Source: a virus
Direction: 5' to 3' (one strand)
Length of the DNA: 57,498 nt
Virus record (IMG/VR): IMGVR_UViG_3300046524_000318
Coordinates: 1 to 57,498 of that record
The translations under genes were made by a program, and so were the position numbers. The notes beneath the pieces were generated by a model, which saw only the letters and a list, made by a program, of their open reading frames with translations, had not been told where the DNA came from and made no database searches. This document shows, piece by piece, positions 37,993 through 55,923 of the stretch (position 1 is its first letter; each line of letters opens with the position of its first letter).

Positions 37993-39696
37993 ATGGCCGA
38001 TTTCAAACTTAGCAAGCTCACAATAAATGAGCCACCATTCAGAAAACTGAAGAGCATAGAGTTTGAATTCGCACCAAGAATTACCCTGATCGCCGGCCAT
38101 AATGGCATTGGAAAATCTACGATCCTCGGTCTTGTCGCGAATGGCTCCGGACTAACAGATTCCGAATACAGTAGTTATACTGGAAAAACCTATCAAGGCA
38201 ACCTCAATGAAATCATACACCTTGATTACATTTCGGAATTCAGATCCAAACAAATTTCTAAAACTTTGCCAAAACCGATATTAGAATATTCTTTAAACGA
38301 CATACCTTTTAGAAAACGCTGCGCACTTACCAAGCGCACGATTCCCGCTACAGAATCTAGGCCTTTGAGACTTGAGGCCAGGGTAGTCCCAAGAAACATC
38401 CCTGCAAAAGACTATCTTTTACCTGGCACCGATGTAGAAATTGGTGACTCATCGAAGGTTCCAATCCCAACAATCTATCTAGGCATGACTAGAATGCTGC
38501 CGATCGGGGAAAGTGATCCGGAGATGGTTGAAAATACTCCCGACACAACCATTCACCCAATGGACGCGGACTTTATCAGATCTTTTGTAAATGGAGTGAT
38601 AGGTGTAAGCGCTCTTCAGGGAGCGAACACGTCTATAACCACTCAGTCAATAAAGGGCACGAACAAAACCACTAAACACCCTGAGTATACTCACAGCCCG
38701 AAAACCGTTTCGCTTGGGCAGGACAGTCTCAGCGCAATAGCGACTGCTCTTGCATCCTTTCAAAAGCTCAAGCGTGACTGGAAGGACTATCCGGGAGGGA
38801 TACTTGTAATAGACGAGTTAGACGCTGGCTTCCACCCACACGCCCAACGAAAGTTAATTCAGAGTATCGGAAACGCGGCCAAAAAACTCAAACTCCAAGT
38901 CATAGCAACGACTCACTCATTATGCCTAATTGAGAGCATTCATCCTGATACCAATCCAATTGGAGATAAAGGGAGCTATGTAGACAAGGTAATCTACATA
39001 AGAGATACCACAAGACCAAAAATAACAGATTCTTCGCTTGTATCTATTCAAAATGACATGAACCTTACTGCACCGAAGCCGATAAAAAAGGCTAAAACCC
39101 AACACATCAAAGTCTACTTAGAAGACGCAGAAGCAAATAGATTCATAAAAAAACTAATAACTCGAAAAGTACAAAACCGCGTAAAAAGTGAAACCGGCAG
39201 ACTCCTGAAAGCCATTCCTATAAGTGTAGGATGCGACAACATGCAGGGACTACAAAATTTTGACCCTCACTTTAAAACGGTTTTGATAGCAGTCGATGCT
39301 GACTCGACAATTAAGACTGGGCGAGGAAGAAAAAAAATCACCAACGTTGTTAAGCTACCCGGAGGCCAAGACTCTGCCGGCCGTGGATATAACCCAGAAA
39401 GAACAATATATGAGTTTGTGAAAGAACTCATAGAAACGGATGAAAACTACCCTATTGCAAGAGCACATCTTGAAGAGCTAGGCGTAACTACTGATCAGCT
39501 CTTCCACCATCTCATTGATTGTGACGTGACGATAACGAAGAGAGTATCTTCAAAAAACTGGATGAAGGCTCGACTCGACTTTATAGATGATTGGAGCCTG
39601 ATAGATCTTTGGCTTAAAGAACATCCGGAAAAGGTCGAAATATTTGAAAATGAGCTGACGGAAGCGGCCAAGATCACAGCGAAGCTCACAATTTAA
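37993..39696 (+). CDS. OLD-like ATPase/TOPRIM nuclease, candidate exclusion protein
   Basis: 567 aa. The N-terminal two thirds is an ABC-type ATPase split as in OLD and RecF-like proteins: Walker A GHNGIGKST (35-43), signature-like SLGQDS, Walker B ILVIDELDAGF (about 270-278) and switch His in ATTHS (about 305). The C-terminal part looks TOPRIM-like: KVYLEDAEANRF (about 372-383) supplies a Glu-Asp pair and IAVDADS (about 432-438) the D-x-D. OLD-family nucleases (P2 Old, Gabija GajA, retron-Eco8 effector) kill or block infected cells. The DNA is markedly AT-rich. It lies between cI and OL, the rex position, and precedes a Dam methylase. Confidence 0.8.
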   Translation: MADFKLSKLTINEPPFRKLKSIEFEFAPRITLIAGHNGIGKSTILGLVANGSGLTDSEYSSYTGKTYQGNLNEIIHLDYISEFRSKQISKTLPKPILEYSLNDIPFRKRCALTKRTIPATESRPLRLEARVVPRNIPAKDYLLPGTDVEIGDSSKVPIPTIYLGMTRMLPIGESDPEMVENTPDTTIHPMDADFIRSFVNGVIGVSALQGANTSITTQSIKGTNKTTKHPEYTHSPKTVSLGQDSLSAIATALASFQKLKRDWKDYPGGILVIDELDAGFHPHAQRKLIQSIGNAAKKLKLQVIATTHSLCLIESIHPDTNPIGDKGSYVDKVIYIRDTTRPKITDSSLVSIQNDMNLTAPKPIKKAKTQHIKVYLEDAEANRFIKKLITRKVQNRVKSETGRLLKAIPISVGCDNMQGLQNFDPHFKTVLIAVDADSTIKTGRGRKKITNVVKLPGGQDSAGRGYNPERTIYEFVKELIETDENYPIARAHLEELGVTTDQLFHHLIDCDVTITKRVSSKNWMKARLDFIDDWSLIDLWLKEHPEKVEIFENELTEAAKITAKLTI

Positions 39697-39760: not shown

Positions 39761-40639
39761 ATGTACTCCAACAAGCTATACAGCCCACTACGCTACCCCG
39801 GCGGAAAGGCCCGCTTTGCGCCTTTCATTGCGGAGGTGATGCGGGCTAACAGTCTGGAGGGCGGGCATTATCTAGAACCGTTTGCAGGCGGAGCCGGTGT
39901 AGCTCTTGAGCTACTATTTGACGGGCATGCAACCCATATTCATATCAACGATCTCGATCCAGCCGTCTACGCGTTCTGGTCAGCCGCGACTACCGATCCA
40001 GACGGAATTCTAAAGCTCCTCAGGGACATTCCAATCACTATGGAGCAATGGCATCACTGGCGCTCGATAATGCTTGGCCAAGACCCTAACCTCTCCCTTG
40101 CGATGAGAGGTTTTGCTACGCTTTTTGTGAACCGAACGAACCGATCCGGCATCCTTAAGGGCGGGGTTATTGGGGGGAAGGCACAGGCTGGCACCTACAA
40201 GCTCGATGCACGTTTTAGCAAGGAGATGATTGCCTCCAGGCTTGAGCGAATAGCACTGAACGCAGATCGCATTTCGGTATATTGCGAGGATGCTTTTCTT
40301 TTGCTAGGTCGCGCAGCAGAGTTTTTGCCTAAGCAATCGCTAATCTACCTTGACCCGCCTTACTACGTTAAAGGTCGTGGCCTGTATCGAAACTTCTATA
40401 AGCATGATGATCACCTGCAGATCGCTCGACTGCTTCAATCGCCTGATTTTGATCGGCCTTGGGTCGTCTCATACGACAGCGCACCAGAAATCTGCGAGAT
40501 GTACAGCCAGAACGAAGCACTGACTTACGGCCTGCACTACACCGCTCAAGCACGCTACGTGGGAGACGAGGTTATGTTTTTCAAGGAAGGTATCTCTGTG
40601 CCTGACGCGAAAATCCCTAGAGCCACTGTAGCTGCCTGA
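39761..40639 (+). CDS. DNA adenine methylase, D12 class (Dam-type)
   Basis: 292 aa. PLRYPGGK (residues 9-16), EPFAGGAGVALELL (about 39-52, AdoMet site) and LIYLDPPYY (about 196-204, catalytic DPPY) are the three diagnostic Dam/D12 motifs, in the alpha-class order. It probably methylates N6 of adenine at a short site such as GATC, unproven. It follows the OLD-like gene by 64 nt, is more GC-rich than it, and is closed by a strong terminator. Confidence 0.9.
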   Translation: MYSNKLYSPLRYPGGKARFAPFIAEVMRANSLEGGHYLEPFAGGAGVALELLFDGHATHIHINDLDPAVYAFWSAATTDPDGILKLLRDIPITMEQWHHWRSIMLGQDPNLSLAMRGFATLFVNRTNRSGILKGGVIGGKAQAGTYKLDARFSKEMIASRLERIALNADRISVYCEDAFLLLGRAAEFLPKQSLIYLDPPYYVKGRGLYRNFYKHDDHLQIARLLQSPDFDRPWVVSYDSAPEICEMYSQNEALTYGLHYTAQARYVGDEVMFFKEGISVPDAKIPRATVAA

Positions 40640-47208: not shown

Positions 47209-47778
47209 CTACCAAGTACAGATTAGCTCTGCTGTACCTTGCGGAATGGAAACCTCGGCCCTCGATTTTACCGGCCAGAACAGACGGTATTCAGCTTGCC
47301 ATTCATCAAGATTTGACTTGAGGAAATGGTTACGTTGATGCCCTGACGTGTAACGGCAAGGACCGGCTTTTGACTCAACTCCAAGCTGCTCATCAAGATC
47401 TTCTTTCAAGCGCTTTATGTCTATTATTTTTACGCAAGATTTCTTCTTCATTTTCCGCGCAACTGTCCGAGTTAGACGGTAGCTAAAGGAAAGTATGAGG
47501 CCGTCGTCTTCAAAGTAATAGGCATCCCGAACATCCGGAATTCTCACTCCTTCTACTACCACGTTTTGCAAAGTCAGGCCGTAAGCATTGCCGACCTGAA
47601 CGCCTGGACCAAGATTCTTCAAATCGAATTCTGATTTATGAATTAGGTTCTCGTCAGGAGTATAAATCCCACTCCGATCTGTGCTCTTGTAATAGCTAGC
47701 CGGATTGATTGGAGCTACACCGCCATTTATCCATGTATTCGCATACGAATGTTCGTTTAGATATAGATACAGACTCAT
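47209..47778 (-). CDS. unidentified moron, reversed in the PL arm
   Basis: 189 aa. The N-terminus MSLYLYLNEHSYANTWINGG precedes VAPINPASYYKSTDRSGIYTPDENLIHKS, a pattern seen, as far as I recall, in scattered uncharacterised proteins of mobile elements. The region around residue 105 is basic (ARKMKKKSCVKI). The stop abuts the stop of the preceding gene tail to tail. The DNA is AT-richer than the operon. The function is unknown. Confidence 0.65.
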   Translation of the reverse strand: MSLYLYLNEHSYANTWINGGVAPINPASYYKSTDRSGIYTPDENLIHKSEFDLKNLGPGVQVGNAYGLTLQNVVVEGVRIPDVRDAYYFEDDGLILSFSYRLTRTVARKMKKKSCVKIIDIKRLKEDLDEQLGVESKAGPCRYTSGHQRNHFLKSNLDEWQAEYRLFWPVKSRAEVSIPQGTAELICTW

Positions 47779-47848
47779 TCAGCCCCCTCCCTGTCAGCCC
47801 AAATGCCGGGCCGAACACAAATACCGCAACGGTCGGATATACCCCAGC

Positions 47849-48037
47849 TCAGACGAAATTCGGCGGCTCAACGACTCGATGCGCCGACTCCATGTAGCTG
47901 GCCAGGTCGATCACCTCCCGAAGGAACACGACCACCTCCAGCTTCACTGCGTCGTCGGGCAGCCCTATCCGTTTCAGCATTGCTTTAGCGTCTTCTTCGA
48001 TAGCCGCTAGCGCATCTACATCGCTCTGCAACCTCAT
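47849..48037 (-). CDS. small hypothetical protein
   Basis: 62 aa from ATG 48037, which has an excellent AGGAGG 5 nt upstream. The helical sequence has DVDALAAIEEDAKAMLKRIGLPDDAVKLEVVVF. Reversed relative to the operon, like its neighbour. Function unknown. Confidence 0.6.
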   Translation of the reverse strand: MRLQSDVDALAAIEEDAKAMLKRIGLPDDAVKLEVVVFLREVIDLASYMESAHRVVEPPNFV

Positions 48038-48118
48038 GTCGGCCTCCTGCCTATTTGAGCTGAGTGATACATACACCAGTTATGGATTCTCTTGCCAGCG
48101 GAAATAAAAAGGTAGGCG

Positions 48119-48432
48119 ATGACTGAGCGCAATGCGCAATTGCTGAAGGACAAGCGCGCCAAGGAGAAGGCGTTGCTCGACAGGATCGGCGCCGAGAAGC
48201 GATCACTGATTATTTCGAAGGCGCTTACTGATGCACCTCAGATGCTGGGCGAACGCCACGGATTCGAGAATGGCAAGAAACGGTTTCGTCGTTCATTATC
48301 AATTTGGCTGCTGCTCCCGCCGAAGAGTCAGAAAATTTCGCGAGCATGTCGCGAGCTAAATTGATCGTTAAGACTAAATGGTGGCGGCAGCTTGAAAAAT
48401 TCGCCGCGACAAGTATTGAGCAAACTTTCTAG
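48119..48432 (+). pseudogene. frameshifted small DNA-binding-type gene
   Basis: The zero frame starts MTERNAQLLKDKRAKEKALL and reads like a phage ribbon-helix-helix-type protein up to GFEN (about 48268), then degenerates and stops at 48364. In the -1 frame from there the sequence continues naturally as QETVSSFIINLAAAPAEESE and ends at 48432. A single missing base near 48268-48275 explains this. There is no classical slippery heptamer, so mutation or sequencing error is likelier than programmed shifting. Confidence 0.65.
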
Positions 48433-48441
48433 TGAGAACAC

Positions 48442-48993
48442 TCAATAAAACGTTTTATATATCATTACAGCAAATAAATTGACCATTCCGAAAACAAAAA
48501 AACCAAGTGATACCGCTTTGAGAAGTCGAAAAGATAGCTCGCCTCTTTTTACTCTATTCCATTCAGACTTCAATACACCCTGCACTTTCTCAACGAGCTC
48601 AAACGCTGCATGATCAATCTGATGCCTGCTCGCCGCTTCATTCACTCGAAAAAAATCCAATATTCTTATGATTTCTACATGCTCTACTGGATTTAGTCGT
48701 AGACGTATCTTTACGCTTAAGCTTTCCATTTTCGTTATATCGTCATGCCTACCAAGCAAGTATTCCTTAATACTCTCACCATCTTTCTTTTTCAGCGCAG
48801 CAAATGAAGCCATCGAATGAGCGGTTCCGGCGAAATCAGAGACATCTGACCTCAGCCCATCGATCCAAGCTTGACGAAACTCGGAAGTCTTTTGATCTTT
48901 CGCCAACACAGTTATCGTGAAAGAGATTATCCCAGCAATTAACGCCGCTGTGATAGGCCCGGCAATCGGTAATAACGTCCTCAGCAATTCCAT
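48442..48993 (-). CDS. membrane-anchored protein, reversed moron
   Basis: 183 aa. Membrane segments lie at about 11-31 and 158-178, with a cytoplasmic helical middle. QKTSEFRQAWIDGLRSDVSDFAG after the first segment is a pattern I recall from many uncharacterised bacterial membrane proteins. AT-rich, transcribed against the operon. Could act in exclusion or sensing, but nothing direct shows it. 48994-49208 beyond its start holds no gene. Confidence 0.65.
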   Translation of the reverse strand: MELLRTLLPIAGPITAALIAGIISFTITVLAKDQKTSEFRQAWIDGLRSDVSDFAGTAHSMASFAALKKKDGESIKEYLLGRHDDITKMESLSVKIRLRLNPVEHVEIIRILDFFRVNEAASRHQIDHAAFELVEKVQGVLKSEWNRVKRGELSFRLLKAVSLGFFVFGMVNLFAVMIYKTFY

Positions 48994-49208
48994 AATTCAC
49001 TCCCGTCTATAAATCTTCAATCGATTTAGACAAACATAACCAACGTCAGCTCGTTTACGCAACCGGTCCCGGGAGCGGTGCTCTATCCGCAAATGTTATG
49101 AAACGATTCCGCAGCACCGCATCACGTTGGTTAGCGCGTCGAGATATCAACAAATGACCCTGCTCCTCAATTCAGTACCGGGTCGCACTGACTACTTTTA
49201 AAATGCGC

Positions 49209-49703
49209 TTAATGCATGACAAGCAAAGCAGCGTGAGCAGACTCAATTAATTCCAGTCTTTTCCGAACTGAAAGACACGAATTCTCAGACCAATTGTGTT
49301 CGGGGGTAATTGCACTTACAAAAAGGGCGACATCCTCAACTGCCACTCTTGTTAAAAATAATTGTGTATGGATTACAGAGTCAACACCATCGCTTAAACT
49401 AACCTCCGTCAGGTGTTGAAGCGACTGGCTCAATCCCGTGGATACCAAGTCCTTCTGAGGTAGTGTTATATCTTTATTCACGTCAATAGCTAAACGCACC
49501 CTTAAAGCGGCTTCCTTAACGACAGCCTCCGCCCGAACAGCAGCATTTTTTCTGCTTTCGACTTCCGCGTTTCGCCTCATCCTTGAATCACGCGATGCTA
49601 TCCAGATCGCCGCCAGAATCGCCGCTATTGAACCAACCGCCTGAACCCACGACGCCAGACCTGGATGATGCTCAATCCAGTACGACACACAATCCCAGCT
49701 CAT
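49209..49703 (-). CDS. membrane-anchored protein, reversed moron
   Basis: 164 aa with one N-terminal membrane segment (about 18-37, VQAVGSIAAILAAIWIASRD) and a cytoplasmic helical domain (AAVRAEAVVKEAALRVRLAI). It is a neighbour of the 48442 membrane protein and has similar topology. No family is recognised. Confidence 0.6.
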   Translation of the reverse strand: MSWDCVSYWIEHHPGLASWVQAVGSIAAILAAIWIASRDSRMRRNAEVESRKNAAVRAEAVVKEAALRVRLAIDVNKDITLPQKDLVSTGLSQSLQHLTEVSLSDGVDSVIHTQLFLTRVAVEDVALFVSAITPEHNWSENSCLSVRKRLELIESAHAALLVMH

Positions 49704-49750: not shown

Positions 49751-51796
49751 ATGTCCGCACAACAGAAGAAACACCCCTTCGATTTCAAAACTCAATACGG
49801 ACTCGGCTTCAGCACTCAGGACGATGAGATCGTTGTCGACTTCTTCTGCGGTGGCGGCGGCGCCGGTACCGGGCTGGAGATGGGTCTGGGCCGCGCGGTG
49901 AATGTCGCCAAAAACCACAGCCCACAAGCGATCAGCATGCATACCGTGAATCACCCGGGCGCCGTGCACTACACCACCGATGTGTTCGAAGGTGATCCAG
50001 ACACCGAGTGCGGCGGCAAGGCCGTTGGCTGGTTCCACATGTCGCCGGATTGCACGCATCACAGCCAGGCCGCCGGCGGGCAACCGCGCAAGCGCGAGAT
50101 CCGGAATCTGTCGTGGATCGGCCTGAAGTGGGCCGGCAAGAAGAAGCCTCGCGTCATCAGTCTGGAAAACGTGAAACAGATCCTCCAGTGGGGGCCGCTG
50201 ATCGCCAAGCGCTGCAAGTCGACCGGCCGTGTCATGAAGTTGGGCGGCGCCATTGCTGAGCCTGGCGAAGTCGTCCCGGTTCACCAGCAGTTCCTGGTGC
50301 CTGACCCAAAGCGCCGCGGGCAGACTTGGGCAGTGTTCGTCGCCGAACTGAAACGCCTGGGCTACGCCGTTGAATGGCGGGTCATCAAGGCCTGCGACTT
50401 CGGTGCACCAACCAGCCGCGAGCGACTGTTCATGATCGCCCGTTGCGACGGCCAGCCGATTGTGTGGCCTGAGCCAACCCACGCGAAGAACCCAGCCAAG
50501 GGCCAACAGAAGTGGCGCACCGCCGCCGAGTGCATCGACTGGACCATCCCGAGCAAAAGCATTTTCGACCGGGCAAAGCCGCTGGCTCCTGCCACCCTTC
50601 GCCGAATCGCCAAGGGCATGAAAAAGTTCGTCATCGATGCCGATGATCCATTTATCGTGCCGATCGCGAACTGGTCCGGCGAAAGTGTCCAGTCTGCCCA
50701 TGAGCCACTGCGCACGGTGACGTCATGGCCGCGCGGAGGATCGTTCGCGATGGCAAGCCCGATCATTGCTCCGGCAACGCATCAGGGTAGCGACCGGATC
50801 AACGATCCCCACGAACCGCTACCTACGGTCACCTGCGCGAATCGCGGCGAGCTGACGCTGATCAGTCCTGTGCTGGTCGGCGCTGGTGGCCCGGTATATG
50901 CCGGAAATCCGGTAGCTGCGAATAAACCTCTCGGCACCTTGATGACGCGTGGTCACCGCGCGCTTGCCGCCGCGCACCTGGTCAAGTTCCGGTTTGCCGA
51001 CGAAGGCAAGGCGCTCGACGAGCCGCTGCCAACCATCACCAGCGGCGGCGACTACAAGCGCCCGGCCGGTGCCGCTCACGCCATGGGTATCTCAACCGTG
51101 TTCATGGCCCAGATGAACGGCGGGTTCAACACCACCGACGCCAAGAGCGTCGACGATCCGATGACCACGGTGACCAATACCGGAAGCCAGCAGCAGCTGG
51201 TGACGGCGAATCTGGTGCACTTGCGCGGCAACTGCGATGCGCGGGACACCGCCGATCCGCTGCACACCATCAGCGCCGGCGGCACTCATCACGGTCTGGT
51301 CACCGCATTCATGGAGCGCCAGTTCGGCGCTAGCGTCGGCCAAGGTGTGGACGAGCCGGCGCCGACCATCACAGCAGGCGGTGGCGGCAAGAGCTCGCTG
51401 GTCGAGCTGCAGCTCTCGCCAGAGATTGAGGCCGGCGCACTGCGGGTCGCGGCATTCCTGATCAGCTACTACGGCACCGAGAACATGAGCGCCGCCGACG
51501 CGCCAGCGCCAACCATCACCACTAAGGATCGGCTGGGCTTGGTCACCGTCACCATCAAGGGCACGCCTTACGTGATCGTCGACATCTGCCTGCGGATGCT
51601 GCAACCGGCCGAGCTGTACAAGGCTCAGGGTTTCCCCGCCGACTACATCATCAGCCACGGCGCCGACGGCAAACCGTTCACCAAAACTCAGCAAGTGCAC
51701 ATGTGTGGCAACAGCGTCAGCCCGCCGCCGATGGCTGCACTGGCGCGGGCCAATGATCCGTGGCGTGTTGTCGAGCAGCAGGCCGCAGCGGCGTAG
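49751..51796 (+). CDS. C5 cytosine DNA methyltransferase with repeated variable region
   Basis: 681 aa. Motif I VVDFFCGGGGAGTGLEMG (28-45), catalytic Cys101 in SPDCTHHS (a variant of the usual PC), ENV at 139-141, TSRERLFMIA and the C-terminal MCGNSVSPPP (motif X). Between about residues 310 and 590 the target-recognition region contains about eight degenerate copies of D-x-P-x-x-T-(I/V)-T at roughly 30-45-residue intervals. It is far longer than a typical phage C5 enzyme. Probably protects phage DNA from host restriction. The target sequence is unknown. Confidence 0.9.
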   Translation: MSAQQKKHPFDFKTQYGLGFSTQDDEIVVDFFCGGGGAGTGLEMGLGRAVNVAKNHSPQAISMHTVNHPGAVHYTTDVFEGDPDTECGGKAVGWFHMSPDCTHHSQAAGGQPRKREIRNLSWIGLKWAGKKKPRVISLENVKQILQWGPLIAKRCKSTGRVMKLGGAIAEPGEVVPVHQQFLVPDPKRRGQTWAVFVAELKRLGYAVEWRVIKACDFGAPTSRERLFMIARCDGQPIVWPEPTHAKNPAKGQQKWRTAAECIDWTIPSKSIFDRAKPLAPATLRRIAKGMKKFVIDADDPFIVPIANWSGESVQSAHEPLRTVTSWPRGGSFAMASPIIAPATHQGSDRINDPHEPLPTVTCANRGELTLISPVLVGAGGPVYAGNPVAANKPLGTLMTRGHRALAAAHLVKFRFADEGKALDEPLPTITSGGDYKRPAGAAHAMGISTVFMAQMNGGFNTTDAKSVDDPMTTVTNTGSQQQLVTANLVHLRGNCDARDTADPLHTISAGGTHHGLVTAFMERQFGASVGQGVDEPAPTITAGGGGKSSLVELQLSPEIEAGALRVAAFLISYYGTENMSAADAPAPTITTKDRLGLVTVTIKGTPYVIVDICLRMLQPAELYKAQGFPADYIISHGADGKPFTKTQQVHMCGNSVSPPPMAALARANDPWRVVEQQAAAA

Positions 51797-54955: not shown

Positions 54956-55201
54956 GTGAATATTTACCGACACAACTTCGCAGCCGTCTGCCCCGCCGAC
55001 GGCGAGACGATCATTTACCGGCTTGAGTTGCGATCGACCTCGATGATCCACGTCGAACACATCAAAACCGCCACCGCGCTGATCAAGCAAGGTTGGCATG
55101 AGCAGATCGCTGACACCCTTTCCGAAACGCTCGGCGGTGATCAAACCATCATCGCAACCCATCAGGGCGTAGAAATAGAAACAGTGAGGCTTAGCGGATG
55201 A
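54956..55201 (+). CDS. small hypothetical protein
   Basis: 81 aa from GTG 54956, with GAGGA 6 nt upstream. The strand-rich start (VNIYRHNFAAVCPADGETI) is followed by a helix with HVEHIKTATALIKQGWHEQIAD. Coupled to the next gene. Unknown function. Confidence 0.6.
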   Translation: MNIYRHNFAAVCPADGETIIYRLELRSTSMIHVEHIKTATALIKQGWHEQIADTLSETLGGDQTIIATHQGVEIETVRLSG

Positions 55202-55923
55202 TTCATTACCACGGCACGCCTGTCGGCGGTAAGCGCGAGGACGCCGCTAAATTCTTGGCCGGCCGGCATGCGCTGGTGCCGTACCCACGCAAGGACGATC
55301 TCGGGATCGTCGCCGACGTATGCAAATCGTTTGTTTTCGATAACGGCGCATTCACCGCGTGGCAGAAAGGCGGCCAGGTAGACGTCGACGGCTACACGCG
55401 CTGGGTCGAAGATTGGCACCGACACCCCGGATTCACTTGGGCGCTCATTCCGGACGTTATCGACGGCGACGAAGAGGCCAACGACGACCTCGTTCGGCAG
55501 TGGCCAGAGGAGCTTCGCGGCGTGCCTGTCTGGCACTTGCACGAATCGCTTGAGCGGTTGCAGCGGCTGGCGAGGTGCTGGCGTACGGTCGCCCTAGGTA
55601 GTTCTGGCCAATGGGCTTCACCGGGCACTGGTGCATGGTGGAAGCGGATGGGCTTCGCGATGGATGCCATCTGCGATGACCAAGGCCGCCCTACTTGCAG
55701 GCTTCATGGCTTAAGAATGCTCGACCCTGCGATTTTCCAGCACCTGCCCTTAGCGTCCGCCGACTCCACAAACGCCGCGGTAAACGGCGGCAGCATCAGC
55801 CGCTTCGGCATGTATGCCCCGCCGACCGCCGGCCAGCGCGCCAACGTTATCGCCGACCGCATTGAGTCGCACAACAGTTCGCCTATCTGGCAGCGAGAAA
55901 CCCAGGCCGAGATGGCCATCTAA
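55198..55923 (+). CDS. possible TGT/DpdA-like base-exchange protein
   Basis: 241 aa. Ordered motifs suggest a TIM barrel: VFDNGAFTAW (about 46-55, compare the DSGGFQ region of tRNA-guanine transglycosylases), LIPDVIDGDEEAND, VWHLHESLERL, VALGSSGQWASPG, LHGLRMLDP and PLASADSTNAAVNGGS. Short DpdA-type proteins of phages insert 7-deazaguanines into DNA. If this is one, it would use a host-made precursor, as no queuosine genes are in the window. The family assignment is my inference; it may instead be a phage protein of unknown reaction. Confidence 0.6.
   Translation: MIHYHGTPVGGKREDAAKFLAGRHALVPYPRKDDLGIVADVCKSFVFDNGAFTAWQKGGQVDVDGYTRWVEDWHRHPGFTWALIPDVIDGDEEANDDLVRQWPEELRGVPVWHLHESLERLQRLARCWRTVALGSSGQWASPGTGAWWKRMGFAMDAICDDQGRPTCRLHGLRMLDPAIFQHLPLASADSTNAAVNGGSISRFGMYAPPTAGQRANVIADRIESHNSSPIWQRETQAEMAI

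Follow-up and report, generated by a model that had tools for sequence, protein, structure and literature searches.

The stretch of DNA examined here, which we call the window, is a virus record of 57,498 bases that contains phage head, tail, portal and terminase genes as well as a CI-like repressor, RecE/RecT, an integrase and a tRNA-Pro at the right end, and judging from this gene content it looks like a prophage. Genome matches were found in Pseudomonas, Stenotrophomonas, Xanthomonas, Enterococcus and Paenibacillus, and since relatives in Pseudomonas genomes are up to 92% identical, Pseudomonas is the probable host. An ORF at 49751–51796 on the plus strand encodes a protein of 681 aa. Just ahead of it the plus-strand early region is broken by three minus-strand ORFs (47209–49703; 189, 183 and 164 aa), which had no Pfam or PADLOC matches and are likely a lysogeny cargo cassette. 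They occupy the place that a phosphoadenosine phosphosulfate reductase gene takes directly ahead of the methylase in two phages (L085:1-487 and L090:1-502).

By its Pfam score and the order of its motifs, the 681-aa protein is a C5-cytosine DNA methyltransferase (MTase). The match to PF00145 (DNA_methylase) reached 86.9 bits (E 2.2e-24; Pfam cut-off 22), phrog_116 was matched along the full protein (residues 5–679, E 7.9e-102), and motifs I, IV, VI, VIII, IX and X were located in canonical order, with an alignment to C5 MTases in the PDB. The protein belongs to the same family as phrog_116, and 301 of 50,697 phage records contain relatives; the library labels that family only 'DNA methyltransferase', and neither a repeat array nor a specificity is described there. 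The gene and its catalytic motifs are as follows:

49751–51796, plus strand: C5-cytosine DNA methyltransferase, 681 aa, apparently orphan and prophage-borne (PF00145, phrog_116, predicted fold)
49844–49861, plus strand: motif I (FCGGGG), SAM binding, aligned to PDB C5 MTases
50042–50053, plus strand: motif IV with the catalytic Cys in S-P-D-C, which aligns with the P-P-C of 3g7u
50165–50173, plus strand: motif VI (ENV), from its motif location
50408–50425, plus strand: motif VIII (PTSRER), located and aligned to PDB C5 MTases
51593–51637, plus strand: motif IX (RMLQPAELYKAQGFP), located and aligned to PDB C5 MTases
51707–51727, plus strand: motif X (GNSVSPP), located and aligned to PDB C5 MTases

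In an alignment with known C5 MTases, the Cys of SPDC (aa 98–101) falls on their catalytic Cys, with Asp in the place of the usual Pro; a Pro before this Cys (PC) is the usual form in C5 MTases and lies outside the Pfam definition of PF00145. An earlier sequence-only reading had remarked on SPDC in place of the common PC form, which is correct, but the feature is family-wide and therefore says nothing about the window gene alone. SP[DE]C was present in 11 of 11 aligned phage members of the family, and SPDC in 324 of 326 relatives, a set partly collected by that very motif (326 distinct proteins of 345; as SP[DEA]C was a condition of extraction, the census of the motif is biased). Because the remaining motifs are conserved, we read SPDC as a presumably active variant rather than a decayed site.

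An array of about 300 residues, in which the same reading had proposed about eight repeats at 50690–51520, is located after motif VIII (aa 220) and before motif IX (aa 615). Eight P-x-x-T-(I/V/L)-(T/S/M) sites were indeed found at aa 319, 356, 393, 425, 470, 503, 536 and 585 (window 50705–51520), more than expected by chance in shuffles. The recurrence of D-x-P-x-x-T-(I/V)-T that had been described applies in its strict form to only four of them (aa 423, 468, 534 and 583), and the other four are the variants HEPLRTVT, HEPLPTVT, NKPLGTLM and ADPLHTIS. A loosened pattern gave five sites, whereas 20,000 shuffles of the array region averaged 0.013 and never exceeded two, and the flanks of the sites are in register, with a mean BLOSUM score per pair of −5.3 as opposed to −17.5 (sd 2.3) for random registers, a value reached by only 1 of 20,000. 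A family-wide unit profile, built from 673 seeds with the window protein among them, placed the eight units at aa 300–333, 337–369, 374–408, 405–438, 450–484, 483–517, 516–548 and 566–600. Each unit spans 32–50 residues and consists of a hydrophobic stretch (e.g., VTAFL..YYG), the D-x-P-x-x-T-I-T motif and then the next LV(T/A)A-like junction. The units share a mean identity of 21% within the window protein, and at the DNA level only stretches of 20–48 nt at 65–85% were alike; from this divergence we consider the units to be old. The NKPLGTLM type at site 393 recurs in 75 proteins and is therefore not a decayed copy. The resulting modules, which resemble target-recognition domains (TRDs), are listed here with their fate among the 124 close relatives defined below:

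50651–50749, plus strand: TRD-like module 1 (HEPLRTVT), exchanged in 0 of 124
50750–50860, plus strand: TRD-like module 2 (HEPLPTVT), replaced in 1 of 124, missing in 2 of 124
50861–50956, plus strand: TRD-like module 3 (NKPLGTLM), replaced in 64 of 124; an extra module can be inserted beside it
50957–51064, plus strand: TRD-like module 4 (DEPLPTIT), replaced in 19 of 124
51065–51202, plus strand: TRD-like module 5 (DDPMTTVT), exchanged in 0 of 124
51203–51301, plus strand: TRD-like module 6 (ADPLHTIS), replaced in 11 of 124, most cleanly in L018
51302–51400, plus strand: TRD-like module 7 (DEPAPTIT), missing in 9 of 124
51401–51550, plus strand: module 8, the last (DAPAPTIT), adjoining motif IX; its type is restricted to the array end (160 proteins)

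Relatives were gathered from viral contigs, genomes and annotated phages, and a first set of 303 loci gave 280 proteins, including the window's own, of which 261 were distinct. Using the unit profile on 134 representatives, we found 2–10 units per protein, and 11 units in 1 of the 261 proteins. Protein length followed 384 + 36.0 n, where n is the unit number (r = 0.845, representatives shorter than 780 aa). This stepwise growth is seen in L161 with five units (569 residues, 65% identity to the window protein), L155 with six (611 residues, 72%), L137 with seven (647 residues, 81%), the window protein itself with eight (681 residues) and L042 with nine (720 residues, 87%). Fresh local duplication as the source of array change was considered and rejected on the low identity between units of one protein, in favour of exchange between genomes: among 5,113 within-protein pairs no recent duplication was seen, the best pair being 50% identical and the mean 21%.

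An AlphaFold model of the window protein, built with an alignment of 68 relatives, had a core with pLDDT above 90 and an array with pLDDT below 50. The predicted window core aligned with M.HhaI, M.HaeIII and DNMT1 over 257–292 residues (Z 25–27). The low-confidence window model contains one strand per unit at aa 447–455, 480–490, 514–521, 565–572 and 594–602, a pattern that we set aside as the confidence in the array was too low. A shorter, well-covered member with three units (L095, 462 aa) was modelled with a mean pLDDT of 77 and a pTM of 0.78; one whole unit and a portion of a second had pLDDT below 50, and the part adjoining motif IX was folded best. This model aligned with M.HhaI over 290 of 327 residues and with M.HaeIII over 275 of 324 residues, with a Z of 28.4 to both, so the catalytic fold appears to be shared with these two enzymes, in which motif IV has P-C where the present family has D-C. 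M.HhaI and M.HaeIII have a single TRD each. Since three units already go with a complete C5 MTase fold in the L095 prediction, the five further units of the window protein would be additions to it.

In an ordinary C5 MTase there is a single TRD, which contains a conserved Thr-(Val/Ile/Leu), and a few Bacillus phages combine two or three methylation specificities in one protein; a 1996 study by Trautner is said to be the key paper on the size of a TRD. For the comparison below we take M.SPR to have three known targets and M.phi3TI two, with the Thr sites scored by our matrix being their TRDs. A local profile-HMM of the unit found nothing significant in M.SPR, M.phi3TI and their relatives (best −0.7 bits, shuffles up to 4.7), and an ungapped position matrix of the units was applied after that, scanned over whole proteins with 200 shuffles as control. 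In M.SPR the top three places were its three TRD Thr-(Val/Ile/Leu) sites at aa 358, 280 and 310 (scores 11.6, 2.4 and −13.6; best of 200 shuffles −3.5), and in phi3T/SPbeta mtbP, to which M.phi3TI is identical, the top two places were its two TRD sites at aa 372 and 325 (4.8 and −9.0; shuffle maximum 4.3), the lower-ranked sites being distinguished by rank only and not by score. The three best places in SPbetaL3 were likewise Thr-(Val/Leu) sites. M.phi3TII gave no matrix signal (−22.8), and the best score in the C5 MTase of Staphylococcus phage CUB-EPI_14 (3.6) was below its best shuffle (5.0). In 32 of 41 C5 MTases of the SPR type or the ordinary kind, the highest-scoring position was a Thr-(Val/Ile/Leu/Met) within the TRD region (41 of 56 proteins were evaluable, and the TRD region averages 45% of the length). 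With three targets for M.SPR and two for M.phi3TI, the matrix match to these enzymes fits one unit per target.

Like M.SPR and M.phi3TI/mtbP of the SPbeta group, the window protein is thus an apparent temperate-phage orphan C5 MTase with tandem TRD elements between motifs VIII and IX. The two differ in motif IV, which is SPC or FPC in the SPbeta group and SPDC in the window family, and in the array, which has two or three units in the former and 2–10 units, 109 types and a fixed end unit in the latter. No phage was common to the matches of the window protein and of M.phi3TI among the matches listed, beyond which lie a further 241 and 920 records, and the catalytic cores may therefore be only distantly related. 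It is conceivable that stacked units each read part of one long composite target, with array length setting the length of the site, and the regular spacing and the single predicted strand per unit in the low-confidence window model would suit such an arrangement. However, the unit matches whole TRDs in enzymes whose targets are short and separate, members with two and three units exist, and genomes would hardly ever contain a site long enough for 10 units, so that methylating it would do little against restriction. We consider a composite target very unlikely.

Exchange of single modules was examined in a close set of 126 of the 326 relatives (at least 72% identity, more than 90% coverage), 124 of which had a core identity of at least 85%, and a module was called replaced when it fell below 55% identity to the window module. 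The replacements of modules 2, 3, 4 and 6 listed above left the flanks intact, though as the relatives are not independent these counts do not equal counts of events. Modules 1, 5 and 8 were replaced in none of the 124, so some units may be structural. The clearest example is L018, which is 100% identical to the window protein over residues 26–240 and over the C-terminus and has modules 1–8 at 97, 94, 97, 91, 100, 38, 100 and 100% identity, departing from it in module 6 only; L020 and L027 depart in module 3 only. Borders of exchange were sharp and fell at the junctions between units. The nine-unit protein L042 kept a module 3 of the window type and has one additional 39-aa module ahead of it, and the module that takes position 3 in L027 is found at position 2 in L315. 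When the 2,058 modules of 324 of the 326 proteins were typed at 55% identity they fell into 109 types, giving 208 different arrays among the 324 proteins and 26 among the 126 close relatives alone. Fifty-five types occurred in at least five proteins, and 50 of these varied in their distance from the array end, with at least two distances seen for each. Module order was mostly kept, with both orders seen for 35 of 575 common co-occurring type pairs. No clear 'code' columns emerged, as among close orthologues only the pre-motif residues and module 3 were hypervariable.

With unit numbers of 2–10 in steps of 36 aa, single-unit cassettes exchanged and inserted, and the match to the TRD sites of M.SPR and M.phi3TI, the earlier suggestion of a modular recognition domain holds up well, and at the sequence level these comparisons establish both modularity and the exchange of single modules. 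The fixed last module nevertheless leaves room for an enzyme with a single target, read by one module, likeliest the last, with the others being silent or spare TRDs that serve as a recombination reservoir. Its type always sits at the array end (160 proteins), it was exchanged in 0 of 124, and it was the part beside motif IX that folded best in the three-unit model. Decay would be expected of silent units, though, and most modules are ~85–100% conserved among relatives with similar cores; moreover, M.SPR and M.phi3TI show the same element once for each known target. On balance a single target seems unlikely to us.

The composition of the array also has to be weighed. It is Gly/Ala/Thr-rich and slightly acidic, with a net charge of −7 compared to +6 for the TRD region of M.SPR, and with such a charge it may be that only some modules contact DNA at any one time, or that some never do. 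The units could on that account form a scaffold that makes protein contacts or non-specific DNA contacts, leading to broad or processive methylation without discrete motifs. Yet acidity itself counts against non-specific DNA binding, and the sharp-bordered exchange of cassettes between intact neighbours, together with the TRD match, points to specificity, making a scaffold quite improbable. Given the acidity and the three units that were never exchanged, some units perhaps may not be DNA readers.

Our preferred reading, which we consider likely, is that the window encodes a phage orphan C5 MTase with one core and eight modules, which acts in anti-restriction through several specificities. One catalytic core with one active site would be served by several alternative recognition modules, each carrying the Thr-(Ile/Val/Leu) element known from the TRDs of C5 MTases. 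The fixed last module probably completes the small domain beside motif IX, and the modules ahead of it would be interchangeable cassettes, several of which (three or more are expected) would each direct the core to a short sequence of its own, where a cytosine would be flipped out and methylated. The marks would protect phage DNA from many host restriction enzymes, and as restriction systems change, phages residing together would re-sort the modules by recombination. Multi-specific recognition is our best inference for the window enzyme, and in our judgement methylation of three or more unrelated targets is fairly likely. Likewise, we infer that one module stands for one target, that the enzyme is active in vivo and that its role is anti-restriction; one enzyme probably marks phage DNA at several sequences and in this way escapes many host restriction enzymes. 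PADLOC gave no defence-family match in seven neighbouring ORFs scanned for a restriction partner, although there are neighbours of unknown function, and the lack of a recognised partner is what phage self-protection would predict. For the family as a whole, we see about an even chance that phages share a large circulating stock of over 100 portable target-recognition cassettes of 36 aa, with as many as about ten strung on one core, and that single-module recombination re-sorts them so that each phage has its own combination of specificities.

Tandem TRDs in phage C5 MTases are already known, and passages of PMC12707154 and PMC8936443 describe how those of Bacillus phages give several targets and shield against many restriction systems. 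The enlarged variant described here reaches ten or eleven units, with 109 types and single-module exchange, and it occurs in many hosts. No description of the repeat array was found in searches of CC-licensed PMC papers, and an earlier account elsewhere is possible. M.BatI of Bacillus (GCDGC) is likewise an orphan C5 MTase carried by a prophage, and according to PMC8936443 it has more than one subsite; it was considered as a relative and set aside since the same paper describes its TRD as shorter than one ordinary TRD and its mechanism as unlike that of tandem-TRD enzymes. Occurrence of the window family in 301 of 50,697 phage records suggests that the tandem-TRD principle is apparently widespread, with far more modules and diversity. 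If our reading is true, it would explain how one gene keeps a temperate phage abreast of many restriction systems. Natural enzyme pairs that differ in one module only, such as the window protein and L018, offer a direct handle on whether one module means one target. If modules are portable, new sequence-specific cytosine methylases would be obtainable from them, and should a module type retain its target in every position, the array would amount to a natural plug-in code for cytosine methylation.

The C5 MTase of Staphylococcus phage CUB-EPI_14 mentioned above (L390:201-2006, 601 aa) is of the SPR type with at least three TRD-like sites and a long insert, and from these sites it is another candidate multispecific enzyme. 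Further genes related to DNA modification were observed in the window. A second DNA methyltransferase at 39761–40639 on the plus strand is of the D12 class N6-adenine type (PF02086, E 8.8e-17; phrog_56), and with both methyltransferases in the same prophage the phage may mark both adenine and cytosine. Directly upstream of it lies a gene for a 567-aa AAA ATPase (37993–39696, plus strand; PF13175, PF13304), which is possibly OLD-like and may act in defence or anti-defence. The product of 55198–55923 on the plus strand matched phrog_887 'queuine tRNA-ribosyltransferase' (E 1.3e-67) without a Pfam match; we presume that it may be DpdA-like and place 7-deazaguanine in DNA, which would make it a further DNA-modification gene near the methylase.
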